A stretch of 64,000 bases of DNA from an uncultured Clostridia bacterium (GTDB taxonomy: Bacteria > Bacillota > Clostridia > Oscillospirales > Ruminococcaceae), in assembly GCA_944386045.1 (NCBI GenBank), contig CALWZO010000046.1, forward strand, positions 1 to 64,000. Reading direction: 5' to 3'. Positions 26,162-42,988 of the stretch are shown in pieces. The position numbers and the translations under genes are program-made. Numbering within the stretch: position 1 is the stretch's first letter; each line of letters starts with the position of its first letter. The notes beneath the pieces were generated by a model. It worked only from the letters and a program-made list of their open reading frames with translations, made no database searches and was not told where the DNA came from.

Positions 26162-26917
26162 TTATCTTATTATATCGCGGACTTTTTTAAAGCCTTCCAC
26201 ATTTTCAAACAGGTACGAGCCTATCAGCTGCATCATCCGGAAATCTTCCTCGCTGTCGATGTCCAGCACTGCGGTGTCGCGCATGGGATACAGCAGGCAT
26301 TTGGTTTCCCAAAGGATGCCTGTGGTGTTTGTCCTGAGAAAATCCGTTTCAAACACATATATGGACGCGTTCAGGTCGTATATGGCCGGTGCCTGCTGGC
26401 GGGCAGTGTAAGGACTTTCAATGACCTTTTCCACATGATCACCGGCCCGCTTTACCATATTGAAATACGGGTTGCGTCTGCTGGGGCACCCGGAGAAAAC
26501 CAGACCGGCGTCCGGCCTGTCCAGCTTCATTTTGTACGCGCCCAGCACATCGTCTATCTGGCGCAGGGGGCTGGTTATATCCAAATCTATCAGATAGTCA
26601 TATTTTTTGCCCAGTTTTTCTTCCATATATTCCAGGCTCTGCTGGAAAACTGCCATTTTGGGCACCACATCTCCGGCCAGGTCCCGGGGACGGGGAATGT
26701 ATGTCACCTCCTGATATTTTTCGGCCACAATGCCGGCCAGAATGTCACTGTCGGTATTCAGGCATATATCCACATCGGCGCCGCTGTTTTCCTTGAAATA
26801 AACGGCGGAAGCCAGTGTGTAATAAACCAGGGGTTTGTCCAGGAAAACTTTCAGATTTTTGTTTTTAAAGCCTTTGCTGCCGGCACGGCCGCAGACTGTT
26901 ATCAGAACTTTTTTCAT
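26162..26917 (-). CDS. neuA: Acylneuraminate (nonulosonate) cytidylyltransferase
   Basis: A 251-residue enzyme activating a nonulosonic acid with CTP. The nucleotide loop RAGSKGFKNKNLK, the LDITSPLRQIDDV metal-binding segment and ARQQAPAIYDLNASIY fit the family. The acceptor could be sialic, legionaminic or pseudaminic acid; the legB/legC/ptmE genes further up point to a legionaminic type (LegF role, inference). It is the last gene of the operon, starting 3 bases after the preceding stop. It is cytoplasmic. Confidence 0.88.
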   Translation of the reverse strand: MKKVLITVCGRAGSKGFKNKNLKVFLDKPLVYYTLASAVYFKENSGADVDICLNTDSDILAGIVAEKYQEVTYIPRPRDLAGDVVPKMAVFQQSLEYMEEKLGKKYDYLIDLDITSPLRQIDDVLGAYKMKLDRPDAGLVFSGCPSRRNPYFNMVKRAGDHVEKVIESPYTARQQAPAIYDLNASIYVFETDFLRTNTTGILWETKCLLYPMRDTAVLDIDSEEDFRMMQLIGSYLFENVEGFKKVRDIIR

Positions 26918-26919: not shown

Positions 26920-27843
26920 TTACACCTCTTTGCCCAGTGTCAGTGCCAGCACTTTGTTGGCTTTTGCCGGAGGATTGATGTTTTCGGCCCTGCCGTCCAT
27001 GATGTCCAGCACATTTCTCATCTCGCGCACAAAACGCATGTTAGCCTCTTCGGCGCAGTCGATAACACTGCCGTCGGGCATTTTCACACTGCCGACGCCG
27101 AATTCTGCCTCTATGGTGCCTTCGGAAACAAACACTTCACAGGTGCGGCGATACTGCCTGCCGAAATAGTCCAGGTGAACTTCGCACAGTTTGTCCGGAT
27201 AGCGGGCGATGTAAACGCTCAAATCGTCGCTGTCAATTTCCAGGTCGGAATATGTGCCTTTGAAGTTATAGCTTTCCCGCGGGAAGCCGAACAGGTCTGT
27301 CATATAGTCCAGCTCGTGTATCAGGTCAATGGTTACACCACCGCCCAGTGCGCGTATGGCGGAATAGTTCTTGCGGTAGTCGATGTTGGGACGCCAGCCG
27401 GGAAGATAGCTGGAGCATATAATCCTTACGCTGAAAGCTTTTTTGTCTTTCAGCACCTCTTTCAGCTTCATATAAGCGCCGCAGTACCTCATGGGGCAGG
27501 CCACATAGGCGTTGGTTTCATCCAGGCCCAGCCGTGAAAGGTCATATATGCAGTCTTCAAAAATTGGTTTTTCGATAAAGAAAAACTTTGCCTTGCCCTT
27601 AAGGCTTTCCAGCGCACCGTAGTGCAGTGTGGTGGGGTTGGTGATAAAGGCCAGGTCATAAACGGTATCGTCCAGCGCGTTTATCTGTCTGTCAATCAGG
27701 CGCGCGGTTTCCTCCGGAAGCCGTCTGTCGCTGCTGCGCCATGCGGTGACATCCAGCGGTATATTTCTTTCAGCGGCCACTGAATGGAGGTTTTTCAGAT
27801 GTCTTGTACCTATGCTTCCTATGCCTACAAACAAAACTTTCAT
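26920..27843 (-). CDS. Gfo/Idh/MocA family sugar oxidoreductase (second)
   Basis: A 307-residue NAD(P)-dependent oxidoreductase with the N-terminal Rossmann motif FVGIGSIGTRHLKNL and the EKPIF motif typical of the family. LGGGVTIDLIHELDYMTDLFG corresponds to the substrate-side histidine region. Its ATG overlaps the preceding gene's TAA (TAATG). It lies between another Gfo/Idh gene and neuA, so it probably modifies the nonulosonate or a precursor. Sequence resemblance to its neighbour is low, so this is not a recent duplication. Confidence 0.83.
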   Translation of the reverse strand: MKVLFVGIGSIGTRHLKNLHSVAAERNIPLDVTAWRSSDRRLPEETARLIDRQINALDDTVYDLAFITNPTTLHYGALESLKGKAKFFFIEKPIFEDCIYDLSRLGLDETNAYVACPMRYCGAYMKLKEVLKDKKAFSVRIICSSYLPGWRPNIDYRKNYSAIRALGGGVTIDLIHELDYMTDLFGFPRESYNFKGTYSDLEIDSDDLSVYIARYPDKLCEVHLDYFGRQYRRTCEVFVSEGTIEAEFGVGSVKMPDGSVIDCAEEANMRFVREMRNVLDIMDGRAENINPPAKANKVLALTLGKEV

Positions 27844-28820
27844 TACTCTATCCCCTCAATCTTATCCATTACGGATATGGTGTACAGGTCTTTTTCAAAG
27901 GAATATTTCGGCTGCTGTGTGCCGGCCACAACACCCAGGAAATTCTGCATTTCGTCCACATAGGCGTTTTCCACTATGTTGTCGGAATAACGGCTGTCGT
28001 GTTCAAATGTTTCATAGGTGTTGATAAACTCTTTTTCTTTGGTTTCGTTGTTAAAGGCGTACAGCGCTTTGGGGTTGCCCTCCCAGAACAGGTGCAGGCC
28101 TTCGCCGAACACTTCCAGGTTTCTCACCGCTTTGGGGCATACTATGTCCACCGCCAGCACGCCCCGGGTGCCGTCTTCGTGGGTCAGGGTGATAAAGTAT
28201 CTGTCCGGGAAGTCGATTTCCAGGTTTGTCAGCTTTGCGCTGACTGCATGTACATCTTTTATCCTGCCGAAGGTTTCAATCAGCCAGGGCAGTTCTATGC
28301 CGAAAATTTCGCGGCAGCCGTTGGTTCTTTTGTTGCCCACAAAAAAGTTTTTGTAGCTTTCCCACGGGTGCCAGTCGGGCAGGTACTGACCGATATGGTA
28401 AATATAGCTTACCGGGCCGTCAAATTTTTTGACGCTGTCCATTATAAAATTGATTTCGCCGCGATACAGCATTGTGCTGGACAAAAACAGCACTGTGCCG
28501 CTTTCTTTGGACATGCTCATCAGTTCTTCATAGCCGTCCTTTACCAGATTGAGTTCGGTAAAGGTGTTTATTTTGTTTTCCAGCAGTTCTTTGATTATGG
28601 CATAATGTGACAGCGGCGCTGTGCACACAAAGGCCACATCCGGTTTTTCTGCCGCCGCCCGTGTGATGCTGTCATAAACATTATAGCCCGTTTCCTCCAC
28701 CTGCCGGCGGCGTTCGGGGTTGGTGTCAACGCCGATGATCTGTGCTGACGGGTCGATGCCTTTCAGCAGGCGTATGCGTCTTTTGCCCATGGAACCCAGG
28801 CCAACAATAAGTGCTTTCAT
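27843..28820 (-). CDS. Gfo/Idh/MocA family sugar oxidoreductase (first)
   Basis: A 325-residue protein with the NAD-binding VGLGSMGKRRIRLLKG. The usual EKP signature is replaced by TELNLVKD, which often marks variants that may not act as simple dehydrogenases. NGCREIFGIELPWLIETFG is the C-terminal substrate-domain segment. Its ribosome site GGAG lies within the last codons of neuC (4-base gap), and its stop overlaps the next start. The role in the nonulosonate pathway is inferred from position only. Confidence 0.8.
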   Translation of the reverse strand: MKALIVGLGSMGKRRIRLLKGIDPSAQIIGVDTNPERRRQVEETGYNVYDSITRAAAEKPDVAFVCTAPLSHYAIIKELLENKINTFTELNLVKDGYEELMSMSKESGTVLFLSSTMLYRGEINFIMDSVKKFDGPVSYIYHIGQYLPDWHPWESYKNFFVGNKRTNGCREIFGIELPWLIETFGRIKDVHAVSAKLTNLEIDFPDRYFITLTHEDGTRGVLAVDIVCPKAVRNLEVFGEGLHLFWEGNPKALYAFNNETKEKEFINTYETFEHDSRYSDNIVENAYVDEMQNFLGVVAGTQQPKYSFEKDLYTISVMDKIEGIE

Positions 28821-28824: not shown

Positions 28825-29991
28825 TTATTCTCCTTTTATATCATGGAAGACTTTGCCCCGCTGCAGTTTGCCGAGGGGAAAATCCCTTAAAATTTCCGCT
28901 ATTTTTTCGCTGGTTTTACAGCCGGCGTCATAGGGATTGGTGACATTTTTGCACCGCTGTCTGAACTGTTCGGACAAGGCTTTTTGTACCCCGTCCAGAA
29001 TATCCTGCCGCCGTGTGGTGGTGCATATCACATTTTCGGCGATAAAACGGCCTTTCTGCCTGTCGCCTATATTGACGGTAGGGGTGCCGAAAGCCGGCGT
29101 TTCCACAACTCCGGAAGAAGAGTTGCCTATGACCACCCGGGTATATTTCATCGCAGACAGATACCTTTTAAGCCCCAGGGAATAAAAAGCTTTGGCCCTG
29201 CGGCTGTTTTTGGCGCAGTACTCGTCCACCATGCGGTTTATCAGCCGGCCGCCGGCGTCGGCGTTGGATTTGGTGAAAATCAGGTTGAGGTCTGTTTTGT
29301 CCAGCGCGCTGAACAGATTTTCCATATCCCGCCGCGGACTTTCGTCTTTCTGGGTTTCCGGGTGATAGGTTATCAGCGCAAATGGGACAAGATTTTTAAA
29401 TTCCAGGCTTTCTTCCAGCCGGTTTAAAGGCATCAGCTGAACATTTTTGATATTTTCATTGCCCAGGCCGCCCACATTGAACACCCTGTCCGGCTCTTCT
29501 CCCAGCTGTATCAGCCTTTGGGCGCTGTCGGCGCAGGAGGGAAAATGCACTGCCGCCATTTTGCTGATACAGTGGCGGTAAAAATCGTCCTTGGCGCCGG
29601 TGGTCACATCGCCGCCGGAAATATGGGCAATGGGCACCGAAAGGGCGCTGGCGGCAGTGGCTACGGCAAAAATTTCGTACCTGTCCCCCAGCAAAAGCAG
29701 TATGTCCGGCCTGACAGTTTCCAGCAGGTCTGTGAATTTTTCTATTGTATAGGCTATTGTCCTGGCTGTGCCCACCTGGTCAAAGCCGAATTTCATTATA
29801 TCAATTTGGGCCCCGGGCTCAAAGCCGTCGGCCTTAATCTCTGACACTGTGGCGCCGAAATCCGCCAGCAGGTGTGTGCCGGTGACCGCCAAAAACAGGG
29901 ACAGACCCTCTGTATTCTGTATCCGCCGGGCGACGGGGCGAAGAAGGCCCCAGTCCGCCCTGGTGGATGTGACAATCATTATTTTTCTCAT
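28825..29991 (-). CDS. neuC: Hydrolysing UDP/GDP-N-acetylhexosamine 2-epimerase (NeuC/LegG-like)
   Basis: A 388-residue GT-B-fold enzyme that releases a 2-epimerised N-acetyl sugar (ManNAc-type) from a nucleotide sugar. Motifs: TSTRADWGLLRPV, LGDRYEIFA, HISGGDVTTGAKDD and VIGNSSSGVVETP. The family usually has GGE at the third site; here it is GGD. An upstream extension of 24 codons overlapping neuB was rejected; ATG 29991 begins the classic N-terminus although its ribosome site is weak, implying coupling with neuB, whose stop is 10 bases away. In a legionaminic pathway this is the LegG step. Confidence 0.88.
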   Translation of the reverse strand: MRKIMIVTSTRADWGLLRPVARRIQNTEGLSLFLAVTGTHLLADFGATVSEIKADGFEPGAQIDIMKFGFDQVGTARTIAYTIEKFTDLLETVRPDILLLLGDRYEIFAVATAASALSVPIAHISGGDVTTGAKDDFYRHCISKMAAVHFPSCADSAQRLIQLGEEPDRVFNVGGLGNENIKNVQLMPLNRLEESLEFKNLVPFALITYHPETQKDESPRRDMENLFSALDKTDLNLIFTKSNADAGGRLINRMVDEYCAKNSRRAKAFYSLGLKRYLSAMKYTRVVIGNSSSGVVETPAFGTPTVNIGDRQKGRFIAENVICTTTRRQDILDGVQKALSEQFRQRCKNVTNPYDAGCKTSEKIAEILRDFPLGKLQRGKVFHDIKGE

Positions 29992-30001
29992 AAATGGATA
30001 T

Positions 30002-30997
30002 TTACAGTTCGATAAGCTCGTCCAGGGAGAAATCTCTCTTGGCGCTCTGGCCCAGCACTTCATACCAGCGCATGGGGCTGATGCCGTTGCCCGGGCGTTT
30101 TACGGTTATATTGTCTGTGGTGAACACTTCGCCGGCTTTTATCGGCACTTTGGCCACAATGCTCTTGCGGGCCACATCCTTGTTTTTGGCTTCGCTTTCG
30201 GTGACTTTCTTCACACCGTCGCCCAGGGCCAGTTCTGTGTTTCTTATGGCTTTTACCAGCGCTGTCAGCTCTTCGGGGCTCATGGAAGCGGCGTGGTCCG
30301 GGCCTTCCATGTTTTTGTCCAGGGTGAAATGTTTTTCCACCACTGTGGCGCCCAGTGCAACCGCTGCCAGTGGTGCTTCCAGACCCAAGGTATGGTCAGA
30401 GTAACCCACCTTTGTGCCGAAATTTTTCTGTATGTCCAGCATGGCTTTTACATTGGCATCTTTCAGCGGAGTGGGGTATTCGGTGTTGCAGTGGAGTATG
30501 GTAACATCCTCTGCTCCGTTGGAATACAGCACATCCAAAGCGGCCTTTATCTCCGGTATTTCGCACATGCCGGTGGACATGATTATCGGTTTTTTCAGCC
30601 TGGCAACCTTTTCCAGATAGGGCAGGTTGGTAACTTCGCCGGAAGGAATTTTCCACACCGGCATATCCATGCCGGCAAGGAAGTCTATGGAGTCCATATC
30701 AAAAGGGGTGGACAGATATTTTATACCTATGCTGTCGCAGTATTCTTTCAGTTTCCGGTGTTCGGCAAAACCGAAATGAATTTTTTTCACCATTTCCAGC
30801 TGGCTTTCCGCCTCGCCGGTGGACTCTTTCTGATATTCCGCCTTGGGGGCAAAGCGGCTGATAACCAGTTCCGGAACAGCAGTCTGATATTTTACTATAT
30901 CGGCGCCTGCGGCCTTGGCCACATCCGCCATTTTTTTGGCAAGTTCAAAGGAGCCGTTATGGTTTACACCTGCTTCGGCTATTATCAAAACTGACAT
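30002..30997 (-). CDS. neuB: N-acetylneuraminate/legionaminate synthase
   Basis: A 331-residue PEP-dependent synthase that condenses an N-acetyl hexosamine with phosphoenolpyruvate. The TIM barrel has IIAEAGVNHNGS, the STPFD motif, KIPSGEVTN, MSTGM and GYSDHT; the C-terminal ~60 residues are the antifreeze-like SAF domain (KRPGNGISP). Length is normal. It is the first gene of the neuB-neuC-Gfo-Gfo-neuA operon, with AAGGAG before the ATG and its own promoter. LegI is the equivalent name if the product is legionaminic acid. Confidence 0.9.
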   Translation of the reverse strand: MSVLIIAEAGVNHNGSFELAKKMADVAKAAGADIVKYQTAVPELVISRFAPKAEYQKESTGEAESQLEMVKKIHFGFAEHRKLKEYCDSIGIKYLSTPFDMDSIDFLAGMDMPVWKIPSGEVTNLPYLEKVARLKKPIIMSTGMCEIPEIKAALDVLYSNGAEDVTILHCNTEYPTPLKDANVKAMLDIQKNFGTKVGYSDHTLGLEAPLAAVALGATVVEKHFTLDKNMEGPDHAASMSPEELTALVKAIRNTELALGDGVKKVTESEAKNKDVARKSIVAKVPIKAGEVFTTDNITVKRPGNGISPMRWYEVLGQSAKRDFSLDELIEL

Positions 30998-31114: not shown

Positions 31115-32161
31115 TTATTGATTTTCCAGTTTTCGGCGCATGGCTTCCAGCTCTTCCAGCTGACCCATATCCATCCAGCTGTCCTCACTGACGGGGTATA
31201 CACCCACTTTGAAGCCTTTCCGGCGATAACTTTCCATTATTTCCGGGAAAGAAACAGCCTTGTTTTCTTCCAGTTCGTCAATAACTCTTTTGTCCACCAG
31301 ATACATACCGGTGTTGGTGAGAAAATTCATGGTCGGTTTTTCCACCACTTTGTCTATCTCGCCGTCCTCCTTCATGGAAAACACGCCATAGGGTATTGTC
31401 ACATGTTTAAGGGCACACACCACCGTTATGAAATTTTTGTTTTTGGTGTGGAACTTGTATATATCGTTGTAATCAGCCTCTATCAGCACATCGCAGTTGG
31501 TCAGGAAAAAAGGCGTATGTATCTGACCTTTGAGCAGGGACAGGCCGCCGCCGGTGCCCAGGAATACCTCCTCGTCGGCAAAGCTGACGGTGTAATCCTT
31601 TTTGCACTGTTCGCCGAAATAGGCCTTTATCATGTTTTTCTTGTGGTTGACAATCATTTTGAAATCACTGCAGCCAAAGTTTTTGAACCTGTCGATGATA
31701 TGTTCCACAATGGGTTTTTCGCCTACCGGGATAAGGGCTTTGGGCAGTATTTTGGTGTACGGATACAGCCTGGTGCCCAGGCCGCCGGCCATAATAACCA
31801 CCGGTATGTCCAGCTCTTTTTTGGACATTATGCTGCTTTCGTCAAAAAACGCCACATCCACAACCCTGCCGGAACTGTCCACAATCGGCACAGCGGAAAT
31901 GGAATTTTTCACCATACATGTGTTGGCCTGGCTTTTTTGGTTGACCGGCAATGATATAAAATTGTAATTGGCCATATCCTTCACCGGGGCGTCCAGCCGT
32001 CCGCCGTGAAGAATATGCCTGCGCACATCGCCGTCTGTCAGCACCGCCTGAATTTTAAAATCCGGCGCGATAAACAAAATCCTTTTGCCTTTTTCGTTCA
32101 GTTTTGCCATGGCGTCCAGCACGGTTATGTCGCCGCTGATAATCAAATCGTCTATAAGCAT
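31115..32161 (-). CDS. ptmE: CBS-domain sugar-1-phosphate nucleotidyltransferase (PtmE-like)
   Basis: A 348-residue protein with a pair of CBS domains (~1-118) joined to a nucleotidyltransferase domain (~122-345) showing VVIMAGGLGTRLYPYTKILPKALIPVGEKPI and the metal aspartate in LTNCDVLIEADY. This architecture is that of PtmE/LegE-like glucosamine-1-phosphate guanylyltransferases, which start the GDP-sugar route to legionaminic acid. Nucleotide preference cannot be read with certainty. GGGGGAA precedes the ATG. It is the last gene of the operon, 23 bases after legC. Confidence 0.82.
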   Translation of the reverse strand: MLIDDLIISGDITVLDAMAKLNEKGKRILFIAPDFKIQAVLTDGDVRRHILHGGRLDAPVKDMANYNFISLPVNQKSQANTCMVKNSISAVPIVDSSGRVVDVAFFDESSIMSKKELDIPVVIMAGGLGTRLYPYTKILPKALIPVGEKPIVEHIIDRFKNFGCSDFKMIVNHKKNMIKAYFGEQCKKDYTVSFADEEVFLGTGGGLSLLKGQIHTPFFLTNCDVLIEADYNDIYKFHTKNKNFITVVCALKHVTIPYGVFSMKEDGEIDKVVEKPTMNFLTNTGMYLVDKRVIDELEENKAVSFPEIMESYRRKGFKVGVYPVSEDSWMDMGQLEELEAMRRKLENQ

Positions 32162-32184: not shown

Positions 32185-33366
32185 TTATTTTGTCAAATCC
32201 AGAATTTCATCGCAGACAATCTTTACATCTTCTGCTGTCAGGTTGGAAGAGCAGGGAATGTTTACGATTTTATCCACATAATTCCTGGCGTTGGGAAGGG
32301 GCATGCACAGGCTGTTTTTGTAGGGTGCCTGGTCCGGGTTGAGCATCCATATAGGACGAGACTGTATCTTTCTTTCGGCCAGTTTTTCCATCAGTTCGTT
32401 GCGGCTGATTTTGCAGTCTTCCAGGTACAGGCTGTAAAACCACATGCTGGAACGGATACCGGGAGTATAGGGTATCAGGCGCAGGCCGTTTTTGCCGTTG
32501 AGGTGCTGGCAGTACAGCCGGTAGTTTTCGTTTTTGGTCTTTACAAATTTTTCCAGGCTTTCCAGCTGGGCCAGGCCCAGGGCTGCCGCTATGTTGTTCA
32601 TGCGGTAGTTGTAGCCCACCTCTGTGTGAATGAACAGCAGGTTATCTTCTTTTTTGCTCATGTCCTGAGCTTCTTCTGTAAGTATTGCCATGTGGTGCCT
32701 TACCACATCGTCGTGGCATATTGCCATACCGCCGCCGCCGGTGGTCATAACTTTGTTGCCGTTGAAAGACAATGCGCCGTAATGGCCTATTGTGCCCAGG
32801 TGTTTGCCTTTATAGCGGCCCTCTGTCACAAATGTTCCGACGCTTTCGGTGGCATCTTCCACAACTATAAGGTTGTATTTTTCGGCAATGTCCATCAGTC
32901 TTTCCATGTTGGCCATATTGCCGAACACATGCACCGGTATCATGGCTTTTACATGGGCACCTGTGGTTTTGTTTATCAGGTTGCCGCCCTGCATTTCGCA
33001 GTAGTTGTCGATAAAATACTGTACGCTGTCCGGGTCCATGCAGAAATATTCATCACAGTCCACAAACACCGGCTCTGCTCCGCAGAAGCGTATGGGGTTG
33101 ACCGCGGCGATAAATGTCAGGGAGGCGGCTATTACCTCGTCGCCGGGGCCTATGCCTGCATCGATAAGGGATATGTGCAGTGCGGATGTGCCGCTGTTGG
33201 TTGCCACCACATGTTCGCATCCCATATAGTCCGCCATGGCTTTTTCAAATTTGGGGATCAGGGGGCCGGCGGTGGAAACCCAGGTGGAAGCTATTGCGTC
33301 ATCAACATATTTTCTTTCATTGCCCGGGAAATTGGGCACGGAAAGGGGTATATTTTTATTGTTCAT
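32185..33366 (-). CDS. legC: LegC-family PLP aminotransferase
   Basis: A 393-residue DegT/DnrJ/EryC1/StrS aminotransferase that adds the 4-amino group to a nucleotide 4-keto-6-deoxy sugar. The PLP lysine is K205 in GALSFNGNKVMTTGGGG; GTSALH (59-64) and VVEDATESVG (168-177) are cofactor-site segments. The N-terminal PLSVPNFPGNERKYVDDAIASTWVS is typical of LegC rather than PseC. AGGAG precedes the ATG. It lies between a membrane protein gene and ptmE in the legB operon. Confidence 0.88.
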   Translation of the reverse strand: MNNKNIPLSVPNFPGNERKYVDDAIASTWVSTAGPLIPKFEKAMADYMGCEHVVATNSGTSALHISLIDAGIGPGDEVIAASLTFIAAVNPIRFCGAEPVFVDCDEYFCMDPDSVQYFIDNYCEMQGGNLINKTTGAHVKAMIPVHVFGNMANMERLMDIAEKYNLIVVEDATESVGTFVTEGRYKGKHLGTIGHYGALSFNGNKVMTTGGGGMAICHDDVVRHHMAILTEEAQDMSKKEDNLLFIHTEVGYNYRMNNIAAALGLAQLESLEKFVKTKNENYRLYCQHLNGKNGLRLIPYTPGIRSSMWFYSLYLEDCKISRNELMEKLAERKIQSRPIWMLNPDQAPYKNSLCMPLPNARNYVDKIVNIPCSSNLTAEDVKIVCDEILDLTK

Positions 33367-33430: not shown

Positions 33431-34054
33431 TTATTCAAATTTTTTTGTAAAAATTTCCTGAACAAATCTTAAAACAGAGCTTATTATGCCTGTATACAGC
33501 AGCAGATTGAATATCCGCCGCGCGTCCGGAGCAATGTAATCTGACAAAGTTCTTTCTTCGTTTATGACAAAAGTGCCGAATGTCATCTGGTTTCCGGCGT
33601 ACATTGTGGGGTCAATACGCAGGCCGCGGACATTTTTCAGGCCCAATTCCACCACATACCAGTTGTCCTCTCCGTCTGCCGGGTGCGCCCACAGGCGTTT
33701 GTTTTCCGAAAAGCCCTCTCCGTCCTTTGTGGTGTAATACACCACAATTTCTCCCGGATAAAGACTGGTTTCCATATAAAATTTGATGTTGGTAATTTTC
33801 TGGTCCGCCTGCCATATCAGCTGCGGGTCGCTGTCTGTGGAAGTCAGCCGGTCGCCGTCAGCCTTCATGGATATCTGCTGAAAGTCCGATACGGTCATCC
33901 GGCTTTGCACCAGCGTTTCGTTTGACCTGGATATATTCTCGGCCGCATAGCTCCAAAAGCCGCGCAGCAAAAACAACGCCACCAGAAAAAACGCGCTGAA
34001 AGCTATTATCTGCCGGGAAGCAATTTTCTTTACAAAATCAGAAATCTTTTCCAT
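33431..34054 (-). CDS. Membrane protein with extracytoplasmic beta-rich domain, unknown
   Basis: A 207-residue protein with an N-terminal membrane helix (~17-34) and a hydrophobic segment near the C-terminus (~183-200), so the middle ~145 residues probably lie outside. That part (ITNIKFYMETSLYPGEIVVYYTTKDGEGF, WYVVELGLKNVRGLRIDPTM) resembles beta-sandwich, carbohydrate-interaction-like domains in pattern, but I cannot assign it. It starts within the end of the 648-aa gene (17-base overlap) with GGGAGG upstream, so it is coupled to the GT-C-like proteins and may be their partner. Confidence 0.7.
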   Translation of the reverse strand: MEKISDFVKKIASRQIIAFSAFFLVALFLLRGFWSYAAENISRSNETLVQSRMTVSDFQQISMKADGDRLTSTDSDPQLIWQADQKITNIKFYMETSLYPGEIVVYYTTKDGEGFSENKRLWAHPADGEDNWYVVELGLKNVRGLRIDPTMYAGNQMTFGTFVINEERTLSDYIAPDARRIFNLLLYTGIISSVLRFVQEIFTKKFE

Positions 34055-35984
34055 CAGCTATATAACCTCCCTTTTCCAAAGTGAAATAAAATCCGTCATC
34101 TGTATAATTTACCTTGTAATAACCCAGGGAATCCAGGCCTATGTCATTCATTGGCACATCAAACAAGCCTCCGAAATTTTCTGCAAATTCGGCAGAGGAG
34201 TTGTCTATCAGGATATGGGTTACACCTTTTTCCATAAAATACTCTCGCAGTTCGCGCTGGTATTTTTCCATTTTCTCAGGTTGTTCCAGCCCGTAAACAT
34301 CTATATATATATCCGGTGCGATATAATTGTCTGTAAATTCATATGTGTATATAAACCATCTCATGCCGTCATCGCCGCCGCTGTAACAATATATGACATC
34401 TTCCTCGCCTATATACGGGCGGATATAATCTGTCTTCAGCATGACATTTTTTCTGAATGAGGCATAATTTTCGTCACAGGACACAAACAGGTTTCCGCTG
34501 TCGGTGTATCTGACAAACAAAGCCGTTGCGGCAAGGCAGACCGCCAGCAGTGATGCGCCGCCGGCAATGCGTTTTTTCTGCCGGCAGGCCGCCAGCATAC
34601 ACACCGCCATAACAAACCAGCCTGCATAATAGATATTCATATACCTTTCATAGCTGGCAAGGTTGTATGCGTCGTTGCGGAAAACATACACATACAAAAA
34701 CAGATGGAATATATAATAGCCTGCAAAACCGACAGCTCCGGTGGCCAGCAGGGCCGCCCGGCGTTTTTTGCCGTTCCTGTCTGCCGAAACAAACGCGGCA
34801 AACAGCACCGCTGCAATTACACACACAACAATAAAACCGCTGCCTGCCATGGCTGTTTTCCTGTCAAAGAAGGCGGAAAACATCATGTCCCTCACCGCGG
34901 CAAATTTTTCGTCCGCAGGGCCGATGAGAAGCTGCCTGAAGCCGGATATTATTATCTGCGCCATGCCCATTTGGGACGAGCCGCCAAAATCCGTGCGGTC
35001 TACCCCTGACACGCCCGACAGGTGCACAGACCAGCCGGCAAATGCTGCACATGCCACCAGAAACATGGCGGCGGCAGCAGCCAGTTTCAACGCGGCTGTT
35101 TTAAAGAATTGGCCCTTTGGCGCCTGCTCGCAGACAAGGCTGTCAAAGAATATAACAAACACGGCCACCCGCGCCAGGGCAAAACCCATGTCCTTTACAA
35201 ACACAAGAACAGCCAGCGGCATGCTGACAGACAGCAGGCCGCGCAAACCTTTCCTTTCGCACAAGTACACTGCCACCCGTCCGGCAAACAAAAACGCCAT
35301 GGGCATATCTGAATATGCGCTTATATATGTGTTTTGGATGTAGCTTACCCTGGCGGTAAACCGGAAGATAAAAGGTGTCAGAAATGCCGTTATATATACC
35401 GGCACGGACCTGTGCCAGCTATCGCCGGCAGTCCGGGCCGCGGCCGCCATACAGGCAAACAACAGCACATCATAGGCAAAAAAGCAGGCCCATTCGCAAA
35501 ACTGCGGGGTGAACCGCTGGAAAATATAGCACAACACCGGCATGGCGGGCGGTATGGAATTGCCCAGCATACTGGAAGAGTAAAAAGTATAGATGGCGTC
35601 ATGCTCTTTTACCAGCTTCCGCGCCATACCCCAAAAGCTGAATTCATCCCAGGAACTCATCATGGGCTGTCTGACAGCCAGGAAAGCCAGCATAAGACCG
35701 CTGCTTGCACAAAATAAAATCACCGGTGCGCTGAAAAAAGAAACAGCTTTTGTTCTGATGCCGCCTCTGTTTTTATACACAGCAAAAGCAAAACTGCCGT
35801 ATGCCGCCAAAAGGGAAATCACAACGCCGGCCTGCAAAAGATCCGCCATAGCAAAAATCACGCCGGTCAAAATCATCACGCACAGTGCCAGCAAAGGTGT
35901 AATCCCGCTTTTTATGTCAAACAGCGTATGCAAAGCAAAGGCAAAGGCCATCACCGCGCCAAACGCCAGCAAAATATTCAGCAA
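34038..35984 (-). CDS. GT-C-like polytopic membrane protein (paralogue 2)
   Basis: A 648-residue protein with about twelve hydrophobic segments over residues 1-500 and a C-terminal ~140-residue soluble domain (DVIYCYSGGDDGMRWFIYTYEF, VTHILIDNSSAEF). SSWDEFSFWGMARKLVKEHDAIY after the third to fourth helix is an acidic loop like the catalytic DE loop of GT-C (PMT/ArnT-type) glycosyltransferases. It is co-linear with the equally long upstream gene. The start is TTG at 35984, with AAAGGCGGTG upstream. Probably it transfers a sugar from a lipid carrier on the outer face of the membrane (inference). Confidence 0.72.
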   Translation of the reverse strand: MLNILLAFGAVMAFAFALHTLFDIKSGITPLLALCVMILTGVIFAMADLLQAGVVISLLAAYGSFAFAVYKNRGGIRTKAVSFFSAPVILFCASSGLMLAFLAVRQPMMSSWDEFSFWGMARKLVKEHDAIYTFYSSSMLGNSIPPAMPVLCYIFQRFTPQFCEWACFFAYDVLLFACMAAAARTAGDSWHRSVPVYITAFLTPFIFRFTARVSYIQNTYISAYSDMPMAFLFAGRVAVYLCERKGLRGLLSVSMPLAVLVFVKDMGFALARVAVFVIFFDSLVCEQAPKGQFFKTAALKLAAAAAMFLVACAAFAGWSVHLSGVSGVDRTDFGGSSQMGMAQIIISGFRQLLIGPADEKFAAVRDMMFSAFFDRKTAMAGSGFIVVCVIAAVLFAAFVSADRNGKKRRAALLATGAVGFAGYYIFHLFLYVYVFRNDAYNLASYERYMNIYYAGWFVMAVCMLAACRQKKRIAGGASLLAVCLAATALFVRYTDSGNLFVSCDENYASFRKNVMLKTDYIRPYIGEEDVIYCYSGGDDGMRWFIYTYEFTDNYIAPDIYIDVYGLEQPEKMEKYQRELREYFMEKGVTHILIDNSSAEFAENFGGLFDVPMNDIGLDSLGYYKVNYTDDGFYFTLEKGGYIADGKDF

Positions 35985-36013
35985 TATATCACCGCCTTTA
36001 TATTTTTTCTATG

Positions 36014-37960
36014 TCAGCCGTAGACATACTCCATCGCCACAAGGGTGAAGTTGAAAAAGTCCTGTGTATAGTTGACTTTATAATAGGCTACCGTATCCAG
36101 TCCCACATCGTCCATGGGAACATCAAACAGATCACCGAATGTTTTTACAAAAAATTCCGATGAGTTGTCTATCAGAATATGGGTAACGCCTTCCTGTTTA
36201 AACCTTTCATACAGTGACTGACGGTATTTTTCCCTGGCCTGCCCCTCGTCCAGGCCTTCGGTGTCCACCGACAGGTCCTCAATCAGGTAGTTGTCAGCCA
36301 GCTCGAAGGTGTACATAAACCACCTTTCGCTGTTGTCACCGCCGCTGTAACAGTATATAACATCATCCTTGCCCACATATCCGCGTATTGCATCAGCTTT
36401 GTTTTTCACACTTATCCTGGTGGTATAGGTCAGCTGATTTGCCTCTATAAACAGGCAGTCGTATCTGGTGAAATAGGTAAACATCCGGAATACCGCCGCC
36501 ACAAATACGAACAGCACAGCTTTGGCCCGGGCCTTTTTACCGTTTTTCACGGCCAGGCACAGACTGAAAACAGCCAGGCACAGCCAGCCAATATAGTATG
36601 GGTAAATATACCTGTTATAGCTTACAAGACCGTAAGCATTGTCTTTGAAAATATAAACATACAAAAACAGATGGAAGATGTAATAGCCGGCAAATCCTAT
36701 CCGGCTGCTCAGCGCCATGGCCACTGTGCGTTTTCTGCCCGTTTTGTCCGACAGGACAAAGGATACGGCAAAAAGGCCCATTACTATCGCCGCTATCACC
36801 ACGCCGCTGCCCAGGAAAGACAGTTTTGTGTGGAAAAACGCATCGATCATCTGCTGCTGTATTATAACAAACTTTTCGCTTTGCGGACCTATAAGCAGTT
36901 CCTTTACGCCGGTTATCAGCATCTGGGCCATGCCCATGTTTGTCCGGCCGCCCAGCTCAAATCGGTTTACTTCCATGACTGTGGCCATGTGTATTGCCCA
37001 GGCCATAAACGCGCCCACAGTGACGGCCAGCATGGACACGGCCGCCCGGCATTTGCCCCAAAAGCCTTTCAGGCAGGCAAATGAAAATTCTTTCTTGCCG
37101 GCAAAAGCGTCGAAAAAGAATATGAATATAACAATGCAGGCCAGCGCAAAGCCCATATCTTTTATAAGGGTGAGAAACATCAGCACCGGCAAAACCGCCA
37201 GTACATCCCTGCTTTTGCCGCTGCCTGCAAACAGTGCCAGCGCCATGGCACCGGCGAACACAACCCCCAGCGGTATATCCGCATAGGAAGAGATATAGAC
37301 CGGCTCCAGATATATTATTTTGGTGTAAACTTCAAATATATAAGGGCTTAAAAAGCCGAACAGGTACACGGCAAAGGCGCTGTTCCAGCCTTTTTTCTCA
37401 AAAGGTGCGGTAAAGGCCGCATAGCAGGCAAAAAACATCACATCATAGCCGAAATAGCTGATCCATTCGGTAAAAGCCGGGTTGAACCGCTGGAAAAAGT
37501 AGCTGAGCACTGCCAGGGTGGGCGGGGTGGAATTGCCTATCATGCTGGATTTGTAATATGTGTACAGCGCATCATGGTTTTTTACCAGTTTCTGACTGAT
37601 ACCCCAAAAGCTGAATTCGTCCCATTCGTACATCAGCGGCTGTTTATATGCCAGGAATGCCAGCATTGCCAGGCTGCTGACAATAAACAAAATCACTCCG
37701 GGAGAGAAAAACCGCCGCGCCTTTTCTTTCACACTGTCCCTGTTTTTGTACAGGGCAAAGGCAAAAAGGCCGAAAGCCAGCCCATAGGAAAAAGCCACAC
37801 CGGCTTTGAGCATATTCACCAGCGCAAATATTACCGACAGGTCCACCAGTACAGCCAGTGATACCAACGGGGTAAATGCCGGTTTTATTTCAAACAATGA
37901 AGCCAGCGCAAAGGCAAAAGCCAGTACCGCCAGCAAGGCTGTAAAGCTGTTAAGCAACAA
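36014..37960 (-). CDS. GT-C-like polytopic membrane protein (paralogue 1)
   Basis: A 648-residue protein of the same layout as its downstream neighbour: the acidic loop YEWDEFSFWGISQKLVKNHDALY, about twelve membrane segments, and a C-terminal domain with DVIYCYSGGDNSERWFMYTFEL and EGVTHILIDNSSEFF. The two are clearly paralogous but well diverged, so the duplication is not recent. TTG at 37960, after AAGGGCGGTGG, is the likely start and overlaps the DUF2142 gene by 11 bases. Function as for the paralogue; donor and acceptor unknown. Confidence 0.72.
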   Translation of the reverse strand: MLLNSFTALLAVLAFAFALASLFEIKPAFTPLVSLAVLVDLSVIFALVNMLKAGVAFSYGLAFGLFAFALYKNRDSVKEKARRFFSPGVILFIVSSLAMLAFLAYKQPLMYEWDEFSFWGISQKLVKNHDALYTYYKSSMIGNSTPPTLAVLSYFFQRFNPAFTEWISYFGYDVMFFACYAAFTAPFEKKGWNSAFAVYLFGFLSPYIFEVYTKIIYLEPVYISSYADIPLGVVFAGAMALALFAGSGKSRDVLAVLPVLMFLTLIKDMGFALACIVIFIFFFDAFAGKKEFSFACLKGFWGKCRAAVSMLAVTVGAFMAWAIHMATVMEVNRFELGGRTNMGMAQMLITGVKELLIGPQSEKFVIIQQQMIDAFFHTKLSFLGSGVVIAAIVMGLFAVSFVLSDKTGRKRTVAMALSSRIGFAGYYIFHLFLYVYIFKDNAYGLVSYNRYIYPYYIGWLCLAVFSLCLAVKNGKKARAKAVLFVFVAAVFRMFTYFTRYDCLFIEANQLTYTTRISVKNKADAIRGYVGKDDVIYCYSGGDNSERWFMYTFELADNYLIEDLSVDTEGLDEGQAREKYRQSLYERFKQEGVTHILIDNSSEFFVKTFGDLFDVPMDDVGLDTVAYYKVNYTQDFFNFTLVAMEYVYG

Positions 37961-39542
37961 AAACCACCGCCCTTTCGGGTAAATAATAAACTATAAGCAT
38001 CAGCACCGCACCCAGTATTGAAAAGCAATAGCTGGTCAGCACGCAGGAATAATCTGTATTTTTTACACTGCGGGCCGTACGGGCGCCAAAATATTGTCCG
38101 ATAACCATACAAAAGCCTAAAAATGCCGGGTAAACATATCTCATCTGCAAGCCGATTATCTGCGGCAGTGTCACCGGTGTCCAGGACAGGTACAGGCCTG
38201 TGAGCACCACGGCATAGGTCAGCAGTGAGCAAATGAAAAACACCGCTGTTTTACCCAGGTCGGATTTGTCAAACACATCTGCCTGTTTCACACAGCACAA
38301 AATTGCTATGACCGGCGTCAGATAGCTTATCAGCGGCAGGTTTACATCCAGCCAGCCCAGCAGGCCGCCGCTGAAAAGGAAAAAGGCATTGTTTTTCAGT
38401 GTGTCAAAAAACACTGCGGCATATCTCAGCGGATTGGATATCACAAAGGCAAGCTGCCGCGCCGGGTCGCTGTCTGCCATTGTCCTGTCTATAGGCGCAT
38501 AGTTGGAAAACAGCTGTACATATACGCTCATCCCTTCGTACAGCACCATGAACAACACGACACAGCCGGCCAGCGCCAGGCCTTTTTTCAGCTGTCTGCC
38601 CTTCAGGTCCGCTTTCCATCTGTCTTTGGGCACACACAGCAAAACGGGATAAAAGACCACATAGCTCATTTTACAAACTGTCAGCACCGCCATGGACAGG
38701 GCAAACACCGCCAGCTTTTTGTTGTCAAAGTCCCCGGTGAGCACAGTGGAAAAAGCCAGGAACATCAGCGCAAACAGAAAACTGTCGCTGTTGCAGGAGG
38801 CGTACATAAAGCACATCAGCGGCATGGCCATAAGGCAGAAAAATATAACTTTGAATTTTCCGGCATATCTCAGCGCGAAATATGAGCAGAAACAGAAAAA
38901 CACAAGGTTGGCAATCCTGTGGGCGTAAAAAGCTCCCAGTGCCCCGAGGCCCAGTATTTTTGCCAGAAAAATTCCTATTGTTCCGGGTATATAAGGTATC
39001 ACCTGAAAAATGATGATGCCTGCATTTGGCGCTTTTTCACCGCCTTTTACCGCATCAAAATATTCCAGGAAACGGTTGTACACCGTGTTGCCCTCTTTGG
39101 CGGGATAGCCGTTGTTGTGGGCAGTGGGAAAATGCAGGACAAAGCTGTTTACATCATCCGGATACAGATGATTTTCGTCAAAGCCCCACTGTCCCTGGGC
39201 CATGGCATAGCTGCGCAGAAAATGGGTGTGCTCGTCCGGCACCTGGTTGGGCGGTGTGGCAAAGGCGTACACCAAGCCCATGACAAACAGCAGAAGTGCC
39301 ATAAACAGCGGCATGTTTTTTTCTTTCAGCTTTGAGGAAAACACAAAAACCGCCGACAGCACCAGCAGGAATACAAACACCACGGCACTGCCGCTCATCT
39401 GTTCCAGCCATGAGGGGGAGTATATAACGCGCAGGTAATATACAAACAAAAAAGAAAAAACAGCCAAAAGCAAACAGCCCATACCGTAAAACAGCACGGG
39501 CTTTTGTCTTATGGATAAAATTTTGTTCTTTAAACTGTCCAT
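37950..39542 (-). CDS. DUF2142 family polytopic membrane protein
   Basis: A 530-residue membrane protein with about twelve hydrophobic segments. PPNQVPDEHTHFLRSYAMAQG, between the third and fourth helices, is the hallmark of DUF2142 and resembles a GT-C acidic catalytic loop. Members are found in cell-surface polysaccharide loci, where glycosyl transfer from lipid-linked donors is suspected but not proven. It lies second in the operon, 26 bases after legB, and overlaps the following gene. AAAGAG is its ribosome site. Confidence 0.82.
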   Translation of the reverse strand: MDSLKNKILSIRQKPVLFYGMGCLLLAVFSFLFVYYLRVIYSPSWLEQMSGSAVVFVFLLVLSAVFVFSSKLKEKNMPLFMALLLFVMGLVYAFATPPNQVPDEHTHFLRSYAMAQGQWGFDENHLYPDDVNSFVLHFPTAHNNGYPAKEGNTVYNRFLEYFDAVKGGEKAPNAGIIIFQVIPYIPGTIGIFLAKILGLGALGAFYAHRIANLVFFCFCSYFALRYAGKFKVIFFCLMAMPLMCFMYASCNSDSFLFALMFLAFSTVLTGDFDNKKLAVFALSMAVLTVCKMSYVVFYPVLLCVPKDRWKADLKGRQLKKGLALAGCVVLFMVLYEGMSVYVQLFSNYAPIDRTMADSDPARQLAFVISNPLRYAAVFFDTLKNNAFFLFSGGLLGWLDVNLPLISYLTPVIAILCCVKQADVFDKSDLGKTAVFFICSLLTYAVVLTGLYLSWTPVTLPQIIGLQMRYVYPAFLGFCMVIGQYFGARTARSVKNTDYSCVLTSYCFSILGAVLMLIVYYLPERAVVFVA

Positions 39543-39568: not shown

Positions 39569-40552
39569 TTACAAATTATATATATCGGGTTTGTAGCGGT
39601 CCATATTGTGTCTTATCCACTCGATGGTTTCTGCCAGACCCTGTTCAAAGGTGTAGTTGGGTTTCCAGCCGGTCAGGCCGTTCAGCTTTTTGGCTGTGCC
39701 CAGCAGGCGGTTGACCTCGCTTTTTTCCGGACGCAGACGGTCGGAGTCGGTCACTATCCTGGCAGAGGGGTTGATCTGTCTGATAAGTTCGTTTGCCAGG
39801 TCGCCTATGGAAATTTCCCTTTCGGTGGCTATATTCAGTTCCCGGCCGATGGTGTTGTCATGTTTTGCTATGGTGACAAAACCGTTGGCGGTGTCCTTTA
39901 CATAGTTGAAGTCCCTGGTGGGTGTCAGTGAACCCAGGTGTATCTCCTCTTTGCCGGCCAGCAGCTGGGAGATGATTGTGGGTATAACCGCCCTTGCGGA
40001 CTGACGGGGGCCGAAGGTGTTGAATGGGCGCACTATTGTCACCGGTGTGTTGAAGCTGCGGTAAAAGCTTTCCGCAATCCTGTCCGCGCCTATTTTGGTG
40101 GCAGAATAGGGGCTCTGGCCCTGATAGGGGTGTTTTTCGTCAATGGGCACATACTGTGCGGTACCGTACACCTCGCTGGTGGAGGTCACCAGCACCCTGG
40201 CGGTGTCCAAATCTCTGGCCGCCTGCAAAACATTCAGCGTACCTTTGATGTTGGTGTCCACATAGGTGTCGGGGGAATGATAGGAAAACGGAATGGCGAT
40301 AAGGGCCGCCAGGTGAAAAACAGTGTCAATGCCTTTCATTGCCACTCTCACACCGTTGGGGTCACGCACATCGCCCATTATTACATTCAGCGCATCCTTT
40401 TCCTCTTTGGAAAAAGTGTCCACCCAGCCCCATGTGCCGAAGGAGTTATATGCGCAGAAAGCGGTTACATCATATCCTTCGTGTATCAGCTGCTGTGTCA
40501 GGTGGGAGCCTATAAAACCGTCGGCTCCGGTTACCAGTACTTTTTTTGACAT
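39569..40552 (-). CDS. legB: NAD-dependent 4,6-dehydratase LegB
   Basis: A 327-residue extended short-chain dehydrogenase. The N-terminal VTGADGFIGSHLTQQL binds NAD; the catalytic triad region is TSTSEVYG with YSATK (Tyr-x3-Lys). Segments FCAYNSFGTWGWVD and FNTFGPRQSARAVIPTII are typical of LegB-type enzymes that convert GDP-GlcNAc to the 4-keto-6-deoxy sugar. It is the first gene of the minus operon running to ptmE, with a strong promoter and ATGAGGA as ribosome site. Together with legC it defines the legionaminic-type branch. Confidence 0.87.
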   Translation of the reverse strand: MSKKVLVTGADGFIGSHLTQQLIHEGYDVTAFCAYNSFGTWGWVDTFSKEEKDALNVIMGDVRDPNGVRVAMKGIDTVFHLAALIAIPFSYHSPDTYVDTNIKGTLNVLQAARDLDTARVLVTSTSEVYGTAQYVPIDEKHPYQGQSPYSATKIGADRIAESFYRSFNTPVTIVRPFNTFGPRQSARAVIPTIISQLLAGKEEIHLGSLTPTRDFNYVKDTANGFVTIAKHDNTIGRELNIATEREISIGDLANELIRQINPSARIVTDSDRLRPEKSEVNRLLGTAKKLNGLTGWKPNYTFEQGLAETIEWIRHNMDRYKPDIYNL

Positions 40553-40591
40553 TTATATATCCTCATTTCAGTTTGATTGCATTTTCCATAT

Positions 40592-40620: not shown

Positions 40621-40700
40621 TAACAAACCCTTTTTATATCCACAGCTTTTACATTCTGTTAACAGTTTGGACACCTATTTTATTTACAAAAAGTTTTATG

Positions 40701-40745: not shown

Positions 40746-41669
40746 ATGCTGAAACTTATAAAAAAGCTGGCGCTGATAGCGCTGCCCATTGTTATATATT
40801 TTGCAATCTTCATCGCTTTTGAACCTTATAACTATTTTGGTCTGAAGCACAGCGAATACACAGCCGACAGCGCAATAGTCCGCGTGAGGCAGTTCAATGC
40901 CGACCCGGCAGATGTGCTGATACTGGGCGACAGCCGTGTGGCCCACTTTGACATGGACCAGGTAGAGGAATATGTGGGCGAAGAGGTCAGCCAGCTGAGC
41001 TTCGGCGGAGCCAGCCTGAACGAAAGCATGGATCTGCTGGAATACGCGCTGGAAAAGAACGAAAACATACATACGGTGTATTTCGCCGTCAGCTTTTACA
41101 CGCTGAACGAAAGCTATTACAAGGACAGGATGTCCTCGATAGAAACAATAGCCGCCAACCCCTTTGCCTATATGCTCAACTTCAACTACAATGTGGAGAT
41201 GCTCAACGAGATAAAATGGTTTATAAAAGGGGAGAAAAATGTGGCCAGCGACCACCACGAGGACTGGAGGGAAGAAGATTATTACTATCCCGACGGCACC
41301 CCACGCGAATACCGCAAAAACCTGGAGGAATATGCGCAGACCATATATTCGGTGTGCGAAAACTACAAGCTGGACCGGGCGGATGCACAAAGATACATCC
41401 GGCTGGCGGAAAAATGCCGCGATATGGGGATAACGGTGTACACCGTGCTGCCGCCTATGGACGATTCCCTGAAAGACCTGGTGATAGAGCCGCTGGGCAT
41501 ATACCGGCAGATAGAGCCGTTTATCCGGCGGGCAGAGGAATGCACCACAGTGCTGAATTACGAATACCGGCAGCCAAATTATTTCACCAGTGACGAATTT
41601 TACGACGGTTTCCACCTGGACGATTTCACCGGACTGCCCAAATTTACACAGATGCTGTTTGAAAGGTAA
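40746..41669 (+). CDS. SGNH-like membrane-anchored protein (possible O-acyl transfer)
   Basis: A 307-residue protein with one N-terminal membrane helix (~7-26). The GDSR motif (ILGDSRVAHFDMD, about residues 60-63) gives the SGNH/GDSL serine block, as in DltD and AlgX-like proteins, and the late DGFHLDDF supplies a D-x2-H pair for a catalytic dyad. Such proteins transfer or remove acyl groups on exported polysaccharides, usually with an MBOAT partner, which is not in the window. It begins the plus-strand glycan set, with AAGAGGA before the ATG and 5 bases to the next gene. Confidence 0.72.
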   Translation: MLKLIKKLALIALPIVIYFAIFIAFEPYNYFGLKHSEYTADSAIVRVRQFNADPADVLILGDSRVAHFDMDQVEEYVGEEVSQLSFGGASLNESMDLLEYALEKNENIHTVYFAVSFYTLNESYYKDRMSSIETIAANPFAYMLNFNYNVEMLNEIKWFIKGEKNVASDHHEDWREEDYYYPDGTPREYRKNLEEYAQTIYSVCENYKLDRADAQRYIRLAEKCRDMGITVYTVLPPMDDSLKDLVIEPLGIYRQIEPFIRRAEECTTVLNYEYRQPNYFTSDEFYDGFHLDDFTGLPKFTQMLFER

Positions 41670-41674: not shown

Positions 41675-42988
41675 ATGAGCTTGGATTTTTTGATTTTGTA
41701 CGAACATATTGTCAGGGAATATGAAAGCATAACCCTGCTGAAACTGGAGCTGGAAAGGCGCGGCTACACCGCCGAAATACGCCAGCTGCTGGACAGGAAA
41801 AAACTGAAATACTTCACCTGGAAAAAGCCCAAAGTGCTGGTGGCCAGCGCAATGTATGACGACAAGACGATGAACAGCTTTGTGTACAACAATGTGGGCG
41901 TGTGCAACAAGGTGGTAAACCTGCACTGGGAACAGGTGCTCAGCGAAGAGCAGGAAAACAGCCCGTTTTTCAACTGCGGCCAGTCCGCCAGTTACGCCAT
42001 GCACACCTGCTGGGGCACACAGGCCCGCGACAGGATTGTAAAATACGGCGTGCCCATTGAAAACACCGCCATAACCGGCCCAATACAGATGGACTTTCTG
42101 CGTGACCAGTTCAAAGGCTATTACAAGGACAAGGACAGCCTGTGCGAGGAATTCGGACTGGACAAAAACAAAAAGCTGGTGCTGTACATCTCCTCCTTTT
42201 CCACCGCATATATGACCGACCAGGAGGTGGAGGAGCTGAACAAGCTGGCAGGTGTCGGCTTTAACCAGTTCAAAATAACCAGTCAGAAAACCATGAACAC
42301 CACCCTGGACTGGGTGGACAGGTTCCTGGACAGCGACGAGGGCAAAAACATTGAATTTGTATACCGCCGCCACCCCAGCGAATGGAACAGCCCCATACTG
42401 GAAAAGATGGCCGCAAAACACAAAAACTTCCACCTGATAAGCCAATATTCGGTAAAACAGTGGATAACCGCATCGGACACCATTTTCACATGGATGTCCA
42501 CATCCATAGCAGAGATATATTTTGCAAAAAAGAGCTGTTTTGTAATCCGCCCGTACCCGGTGGAATGGGAGTACGACCCGGTGGTGTACAAAAACTGCGA
42601 TTATATAGACAATTACGAAGATTTTGCCGCGGCCTTTGGCGCCGAAAGTCCGAAATTCCCGGTGGATGAGGCGCTGATGCTCAGCCATTATGATTTTACA
42701 GACACGCCCAGCTATATACGCATGGCCGATGTGCTGGAAAAGGTGCTGAAAGAGGACGAGGGAGACAGGCGACCCTTTGACCATTTCAAACCTCATTTCA
42801 GCTGGCTGAAATACTTCTCACTGATAGGCCTGCACGCCATGTACGCCATCAGGCTGGACCCGGGCAAGCTGAAAATTTTCGGACCGCTGTCCACCTGGGC
42901 CGGCAGAATTTACGGCCATATAAAAAATACCCGTGTGTCAAAAGAGCAGCGGCGGGAATATGCCGCACAGATAAAGAAATTTATGTAA
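41675..42988 (+). CDS. Surface carbohydrate biosynthesis protein, probable GT-B glycosyltransferase
   Basis: A 437-residue soluble protein. The C-terminal half looks like a GT-B donor domain: KLVLYISSFSTAY at its entry, FVYRRHPSEWNSP and ASDTIFTWMSTSIAEIYFAKKSCFV, which resembles capsule and teichoic-acid type transferases. It is similar to proteins labelled surface carbohydrate biosynthesis protein in nonulosonate loci. It may transfer the CMP-activated nonulosonate or a polyol phosphate; neither is proven. It lies between the SGNH-like gene and the flippase with short gaps. Confidence 0.65.
   Translation: MSLDFLILYEHIVREYESITLLKLELERRGYTAEIRQLLDRKKLKYFTWKKPKVLVASAMYDDKTMNSFVYNNVGVCNKVVNLHWEQVLSEEQENSPFFNCGQSASYAMHTCWGTQARDRIVKYGVPIENTAITGPIQMDFLRDQFKGYYKDKDSLCEEFGLDKNKKLVLYISSFSTAYMTDQEVEELNKLAGVGFNQFKITSQKTMNTTLDWVDRFLDSDEGKNIEFVYRRHPSEWNSPILEKMAAKHKNFHLISQYSVKQWITASDTIFTWMSTSIAEIYFAKKSCFVIRPYPVEWEYDPVVYKNCDYIDNYEDFAAAFGAESPKFPVDEALMLSHYDFTDTPSYIRMADVLEKVLKEDEGDRRPFDHFKPHFSWLKYFSLIGLHAMYAIRLDPGKLKIFGPLSTWAGRIYGHIKNTRVSKEQRREYAAQIKKFM

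Follow-up and report, generated by a model that had tools for sequence, protein, structure and literature searches.

A GT-C-like membrane protein and a membrane-anchored CBM-like partner form a repeated two-gene cassette in the legionaminic acid operons of an uncultured Clostridia bacterium and its relatives

In the present study, we found that the real unit within the legionaminic acid operon of an uncultured Clostridia bacterium and its relatives is a repeated two-gene cassette, in which the gene of a large GT-C-like membrane protein (GT) is followed by that of a small membrane protein with a CBM-like beta domain (SMALL). The DNA analysed, called the window below, is a stretch of 64,000 nucleotides (GenBank contig CALWZO010000046.1). 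The initial annotation had described two GT genes (GTa and GTb) and one SMALL gene as a single three-gene unit; the coupling of the genes was upheld, but the three-gene form was probably derived by loss of one SMALL. We propose, with belief and doubt about evenly balanced, that GT is a GT-C transferase acting outside the cytoplasm, that its acceptor-binding subunit is a detached protein tethered to the membrane, and that it decorates a legionaminate-containing surface glycan.

Results

The operon of the window (Table 1) is a legionaminic acid operon, because LegB, LegC, NeuB/LegI and NeuC/LegG all exceed their NCBIfam cut-offs. GTa, GTb and SMALL sit between the DUF2142 gene and legC, and the location inside a nonulosonate operon that had been proposed for them was borne out by these matches and by the family-wide association with LegB given below. 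As called, the NeuC/LegG-type ORF has 62 bp in common with NeuB, and the true start of this gene therefore probably lies further downstream. The cytidylyltransferase was tested as a dedicated LegF CMP-synthetase and gave a CTP_transf_3 match and a weak PseF match far under the cut-off. In the divergent operon, family and context make the TIGR04396 protein a candidate cytoplasmic CMP-Leg (CMP-legionaminate) transferase. Its Wzx-like neighbour, which had no match in Pfam or NCBIfam, is by context a candidate flippase. No GtrA or GtrB gene was found among the window-locus genes scanned. The same genome carries, on another contig (C40), a GT2-GtrA fusion (L198:13387-14520) and a GtrB-like GT2 (L198:1159-2133) with no recognised GT-C adjoining, and these are possible donor suppliers for extracytoplasmic glycosylation.

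Table 1. Features of the legionaminic acid locus, in positions of the window
Feature	Position	Strand	Basis
Cytidylyltransferase, CMP-nonulosonate synthetase-like	26162..26917	-	CTP_transf_3
Gfo/Idh/MocA oxidoreductase, second copy	26920..27843	-	
Gfo/Idh/MocA oxidoreductase	27843..28820	-	
NeuC/LegG-type UDP-GlcNAc 2-epimerase	28825..30063	-	TIGR03568, above cut-off
NeuB/LegI nonulosonate synthase	30002..30997	-	TIGR03569, above cut-off
PtmE-like CBS + nucleotidyltransferase protein	31115..32161	-	Putative name, by domain order and context
LegC-family aminotransferase	32185..33366	-	TIGR04181, 435 bits vs cut-off 420
SMALL, 207-aa TM / CBM-like beta-sandwich / TM partner	33431..34054	-	ORF calls, AF2, Foldseek, tree
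GTb, 648-aa paralogue of GTa	34038..35984	-	ORF calls, alignment, tree
GTa, 648-aa GT-C-like polytopic protein	36014..37960	-	ORF calls, pairwise alignment, homologue alignment, AF2, Foldseek
DUF2142 membrane protein, 530 aa, core locus member	37950..39542	-	Pfam, 162 bits
LegB, NAD-dependent 4,6-dehydratase	39569..40552	-	TIGR04180, 503 bits vs cut-off 475
SGNH/DltD-like protein, divergent operon	40746..41669	+	Weak DUF1574 match, under cut-off
TIGR04396 surface carbohydrate biosynthesis protein	41675..42988	+	Related to BFO_1060-family glycosyltransferase model
Wzx-like membrane protein, 488 aa	43001..44467	+	Context

In some relatives the distance from the SGNH-like gene to legB is 1.5-2 kb greater, and an MBOAT acyltransferase gene can be present there (L049:1568-3160), whereas in the window (gap 40552-40746) the SGNH-like gene stands alone, which suggests that an O-acylation partner was lost or relocated here. 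Elsewhere in the window, positions 52523-54190 encode a 555-aa protein, membrane-like by sequence, with no match in Pfam or NCBIfam.

As initially described, GTa and GTb are tandem polytopic paralogues (47% identity over 645 aa) that have the motifs WDEFSFWG (GTa residues 113-120) and VTHILIDNSS in common. Their equal length depends on the choice of start, because both ORFs begin with TTG; in relatives the GT length is mostly 645-680 aa. In 43 homologues with 19-63% identity to GTa, residues D114, E115 and W119 of the WDEFSFWG loop were invariant, so that this motif, as judged from the alignment, is more than chance; D228, K267, R450 and Y451 were invariant in the same set. VTHILIDNSS was conserved less, with a consensus of G-T and one D only. 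Searches of Pfam, NCBIfam and PDB sequences, the last with single proteins and with profiles, gave no noteworthy match for GTa, GTb or SMALL, in agreement with the early remark that no named family fits them. Membership of DUF2142 was ruled out for GTa and GTb, which had no Pfam match to it. Neither protein scored above the Pfam gathering score for GtrII (PF14264); a paralogue (L045) that matches GTa with an E-value of 1e-16 was over this cut-off (32.4 vs 30 bits).

The AF2 model of GTa (pLDDT 90, pTM 0.91) was compared with the PDB by Foldseek. The best match was ArnT (5ezm/5f15; prob 1.00, E 1.2e-3, about 612 columns, TM-score 0.34-0.48), full-length yet weak, and the next were Pmt4 (prob 0.91) and PimE (0.69). 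On this model, the GT-C-like nature first proposed for the 648-aa proteins holds as a distant likeness at the fold level, with the multi-TM GT-C domain of the GT-C_A glycosyltransferases. An alpha/beta domain at about 529-648 forms the C-terminus of the model. By the positive-inside rule (loop 73-86 with 5 K/R of 14, and loop 474-476), this domain and the WDE loop are external, and D114/E115 are thus conserved acidic residues in an external loop, a feature of GT-C enzymes.

The start of SMALL overlaps the end of GTb by 17 bp. Its model (pLDDT 95) consists of a helix (13-44), a beta domain (residues about 45-170) and a second helix (178-205), and the positive-inside rule places the beta domain outside, which confirms the overlapping gene and the external beta-rich domain noticed at first reading. 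Among solved structures, Foldseek matched it to CBM86 (8e-6), CBM6 (5e-5) and CBM29 (2e-4), all with prob 1.00. The predicted fold is therefore the beta-sandwich of CBM families; no Pfam match above the cut-off and no PDB sequence match placed the protein in such a family by sequence. SMALL is probably a membrane-anchored, sugar-binding-like helper, a CBM-like fold alone being no proof of sugar binding.

A SMALL gene was located within 100 bp downstream of 124 of the 140 GT genes. The two genes overlapped in 111 of these 124 cases, by exactly 4 bp in 74, and some of the long overlaps reflect over-long ORF starts. Of the other 16 GT genes, most were at contig ends, belonged to loci with the fused domain, or were paralogues standing alone. 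GT has no absolute need of the partner, since six solitary GTs (L045-L048, L106, L145) lack any SMALL and GTa of the window has none directly downstream. One of these solitary genes (L048:3660-5573, contig C14 of the same genome) encodes a diverged paralogue of 637 aa with an RWDEYSHWA loop, and genes close to it were assigned by eye as NusG-like and ribosomal protein L7/L12-like; other genomes contain related solitary copies with no SMALL (L045-L047).

The usual gene order was legB - DUF2142 - (GT - SMALL) x 1-3 - legC - ptmE - neuB - neuC - Gfo - Gfo - CMP-synthetase. The one to three cassettes of a locus were mostly between the DUF2142 gene and legC, and extra ones were interleaved after legC and after ptmE in some Fournierella and Faecalibacterium loci. 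The pair was also kept in unrelated loci outside the Leg operon (L042-L044, L070). In two of these (L042:7138-10885, L043:6849-10842) a polyprenyl glycosylphosphotransferase-type gene is next (Bac_transf in L042), which is an exopolysaccharide context.

A mirror-tree test was performed on the 124 GT-SMALL pairs, with a null in which SMALL partners were shuffled only among the copies within one locus. Across duplications, each GT has diverged in step with its own SMALL, since the observed correlation (r = 0.79) was reached by none of 2000 shuffles (0.40 +/- 0.02, maximum 0.54), although a history of linked duplication alone could yield much of this co-divergence with no need of physical contact. 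This result, together with the 124 of 140 GTs followed by SMALL, agrees with the idea of a dedicated accessory protein. In the tree, GTa and GTb of the window's genus formed two clades (100/100), and the whole GT set of this genus was separate from GT1/GT2 as found in other genera. The window has a single SMALL, which grouped, with moderate support (82/95), with the SMALL located after GTa in relatives and not with that of GTb; in another locus (L072) the order is swapped and both SMALLs are present. Because the SMALL of the window is of the GTa type though next to GTb, and because L072 displays the swapped order, the window has, on these sequences, probably lost one SMALL after a positional swap. 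The GTa-GTb-SMALL form is thus a derived state of the window's species and its nearest relative, and a fixed three-gene unit was rejected.

The window's genome is of the Oscillospiraceae/Ruminococcaceae group. Among the relatives that carry the locus, gut MAGs were the closest named records, and Gemmiger, Faecalibacterium, Fournierella, Anaerofilum, Ruthenibacterium and Subdoligranulum were more distant. Among culturable members, the cassette is present in Gemmiger or Fournierella massiliensis strains. GT was present in 45 of the 248 genomes of the family. SMALL was found in 38 of these 45 vs 2 of the 203 GT-negative genomes, and LegB above the cut-off in 41 vs 4. The remaining four GT-positive genomes had LegB fragments (G029, G101, G133) or a LegB score of 461 bits vs the cut-off of 475 (G186). 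The Fisher p for both associations was about 1e-35 or lower, a value that is overstated as the genomes are related. In 398 genomes across the phylum, only six others had GT homologues, even distant ones, and the SMALL-like domain was found in one besides the window's own genome. The cassette is almost confined to one family. Three genomes (G004, G163, G242) carry legB-DUF2142-legC with no GT-SMALL cassette; in the first, which is of the same genus as the window, the stretch L149:2523-6609 offers a natural cassette-free state. No relative was found in the viral contigs searched and no match in PHROGs; the viral fold library gave no match with E below 1e-3, and its best match was unnamed. In PLSDB, the only plasmid match was a GT homologue with 32% identity in an unannotated Subdoligranulum variabile record (OY725868.1:152966-154762). 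This record of 305 kb is listed as a plasmid and may not be a true one.

In addition, SMALL-like domains were found fused to other proteins. An iterated SMALL profile that had taken in whole DUF2142 proteins was discarded as drift, and the profile was rebuilt from true SMALL proteins only, with no match among 2000 shuffled decoys. This profile matched only the N-terminal 200 or so residues of long DUF2142 proteins (L051, L063, L069, L143, L147, L148 and, weakly, L158). Most loci with this fusion had no separate SMALL beside GT; L147 had no GT in the stretch read. Two tandem SMALL-like modules were present on a Wzm-like ABC-2 permease, one on a DUF6056 protein whose gene adjoins those of GtrB and GtrA (L173), and a weaker one on a glycosyltransferase of the WbsX kind (fusion proteins at L146:5801-7501, the permease; L173:6909-9020; L173:10034-12286; L147:167-2314). 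The beta domain has the motif ..DPQ...YY..R[IL]D... Because it is fused to these four kinds of protein, the SMALL-like domain appears to be an unnamed module that recurs on glycan-assembly proteins.

Discussion

We suggest that each GT-SMALL cassette may encode a two-subunit extracytoplasmic glycosyltransferase. GT would be the GT-C membrane enzyme, taking a sugar from a polyprenyl-phosphate carrier that has been flipped to the outer face and passing it to a glycan, with D114/E115 of the WDE loop, D228, K267 and R450 as the probable active site. SMALL, with its CBM-like domain tethered by two TM helices, would pair with its own GT and capture or position the acceptor glycan, a role modelled on the fused CBMs of the Emb, AftD and GT136 enzymes. 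As the cassettes are mostly between the DUF2142 gene and legC in one to three diverged copies, they would most likely attach different side-chain sugars to the legionaminic-acid-containing surface glycan, whose core assembly would need DUF2142. Transfer of single sugars is favoured because L045 passes the GtrII cut-off and because the operons of distant homologues resemble the three-component GtrA/GtrB systems; outside the family, such homologues lie beside a GT2 and an EamA-like flippase (G528) or beside a GT2-GtrA protein (G519). These parallels, the known CBM-bearing GT-C enzymes, the GT2-GtrA fusion and GtrB-like GT2 of the same genome, the optional presence of the cassette and its diverged copies together argue for decoration by a GT-C enzyme with a detached acceptor-binding subunit. 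Against it, the ArnT match is distant (E 1e-3), with no sequence match in the PDB, and the locus has no GtrA/GtrB genes, so that the donor source is hypothetical. A wider claim is unlikely in our view, namely that these pairs form a class of their own among extracytoplasmic glycosyltransferases, with two cognate subunits, a GT-C enzyme and a separate, membrane-tethered carbohydrate-binding protein, which were duplicated as a unit to build a combinatorial legionaminate glycan; the donor might then be a nonulosonate linked to polyprenyl phosphate. We know of no description of such a donor.

The initial annotation had proposed a glycan-polymerising or protein-glycosylating system, and neither activity was supported over the alternatives, the GtrA/GtrB-like parallels favouring the addition of single sugars to a glycan. 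It is somewhat unlikely that the GTs, with DUF2142, polymerise flipped repeat units that contain legionaminate while SMALL determines how long the chain becomes or keeps hold of it during growth, as has been proposed for lactococcal WpsI/WpsH. DUF2142 proteins have indeed been proposed as cell-wall polysaccharide polymerases or ligases, with WpsH as a partner (PMC12599335; PMC10821137), the window has the gene of a Wzx-like protein close by, and DUF2142 is the core left where the cassette is missing; but two or three diverged GTs per locus exceed the needs of a single polymerase, the nearest homologues outside the family accompany mono-sugar donor systems, and G004, G163 and G242 dispense with the cassette. 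The number of diverged GTs and their optional presence also tell against a ligase that joins the finished glycan, its chain made by DUF2142, to a cell-wall or lipid anchor. We consider this very unlikely, even though WpsJ, a transferase of GT-C fold, has been proposed to link chains to rhamnan (PMC12599335; PMC10821137).

Protein O-glycosylation, in which the GTs would be PMT-like and act on secreted proteins with SMALL as an adaptor for the acceptor protein, could explain the place of Pmt4 among the structural matches, and nonulosonates occur on the protein O-glycans of Tannerella (PMC6388019). However, the cassette comes with no acceptor protein, sequon or secretion gene, SMALL resembles carbohydrate-binding modules rather than protein-binding adaptors, and the homologous operons look like glycan modification, which makes this quite unlikely. 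It is highly improbable that GT and SMALL were duplicated together merely as neighbours that do no joint work. Tandem duplication of a linked pair gives co-divergence by itself and is compatible with the mirror-tree result; nevertheless, the pair persists in unrelated loci outside the Leg operon, the two genes overlap by 4 bp in 74 cases, and operons that lack a separate SMALL gene often have the domain on their own DUF2142 protein instead.

The relatives in Gemmiger, Faecalibacterium, Fournierella and Anaerofilum are common in the gut and have largely unknown surface glycans, and the cassette ties legionaminic acid, a mimic of sialic acid, to a dedicated assembly machine in them. Furthermore, it is a natural two-gene system in which to test how a GT-C enzyme benefits from a carbohydrate-binding subunit, still a question for Emb and GT136, in which this module is built into the enzyme.

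Among known systems, GtrII (PF14264) is approached through L045 and through the distant GT homologues that adjoin GT2 and GtrA/EamA proteins, but GTa and GTb do not match this family and their locus has no GtrA/GtrB; to our knowledge, known Gtr systems have no SMALL-type partner. ArnT/PMT-type enzymes share with GTa an acidic pair in an external loop and give its best matches among solved folds. The TM-score is below 0.5, however, with no sequence match, and GTa has three extra N-terminal TM helices before the helix that leads into the acidic loop. In Lactococcus, WpsI is a DUF2142 protein, its partner WpsH has one external loop flanked by membrane segments, and the structure of WpsJ was described as very similar to that of WpsI (PMC12599335; PMC10821137). 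By description, the likeness is that of a multi-TM protein and a small partner with one membrane-flanked external domain in a surface-polysaccharide locus; the difference is that GTa and GTb are not DUF2142 proteins, that family being represented in the window by their neighbour. GT-C enzymes with a CBM are known in Emb, AftD and GT136, and the CBM of GT136 binds the polysaccharide backbone (PMC11127046). Citrobacter ORF12 (GT136), mycobacterial EmbA/B/C and AftD resemble the cassette in combining a predicted GT-C domain with an extracytoplasmic CBM-like beta-sandwich, and here too the domain occurs fused, on DUF2142 versions. In the cassette, however, the module is a separate two-TM protein that overlaps and co-diverges with each GT, and its fused forms are on the DUF2142, DUF6056, Wzm-like and WbsX proteins rather than in the GT polypeptide. 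The cassette proteins match none of these families in Pfam or PDB sequences, and the window locus makes legionaminic acid, not a pentofuranose. Our literature search found no separate CBM partner of GT-C enzymes and nothing relevant on nonulosonate surface glycans in the window's bacterial group. Overall, the parts are of known kinds, and the split, co-diverging pair of a GT-C and a CBM-like protein in a nonulosonate locus appears, in the literature available to us, not to have been reported before.
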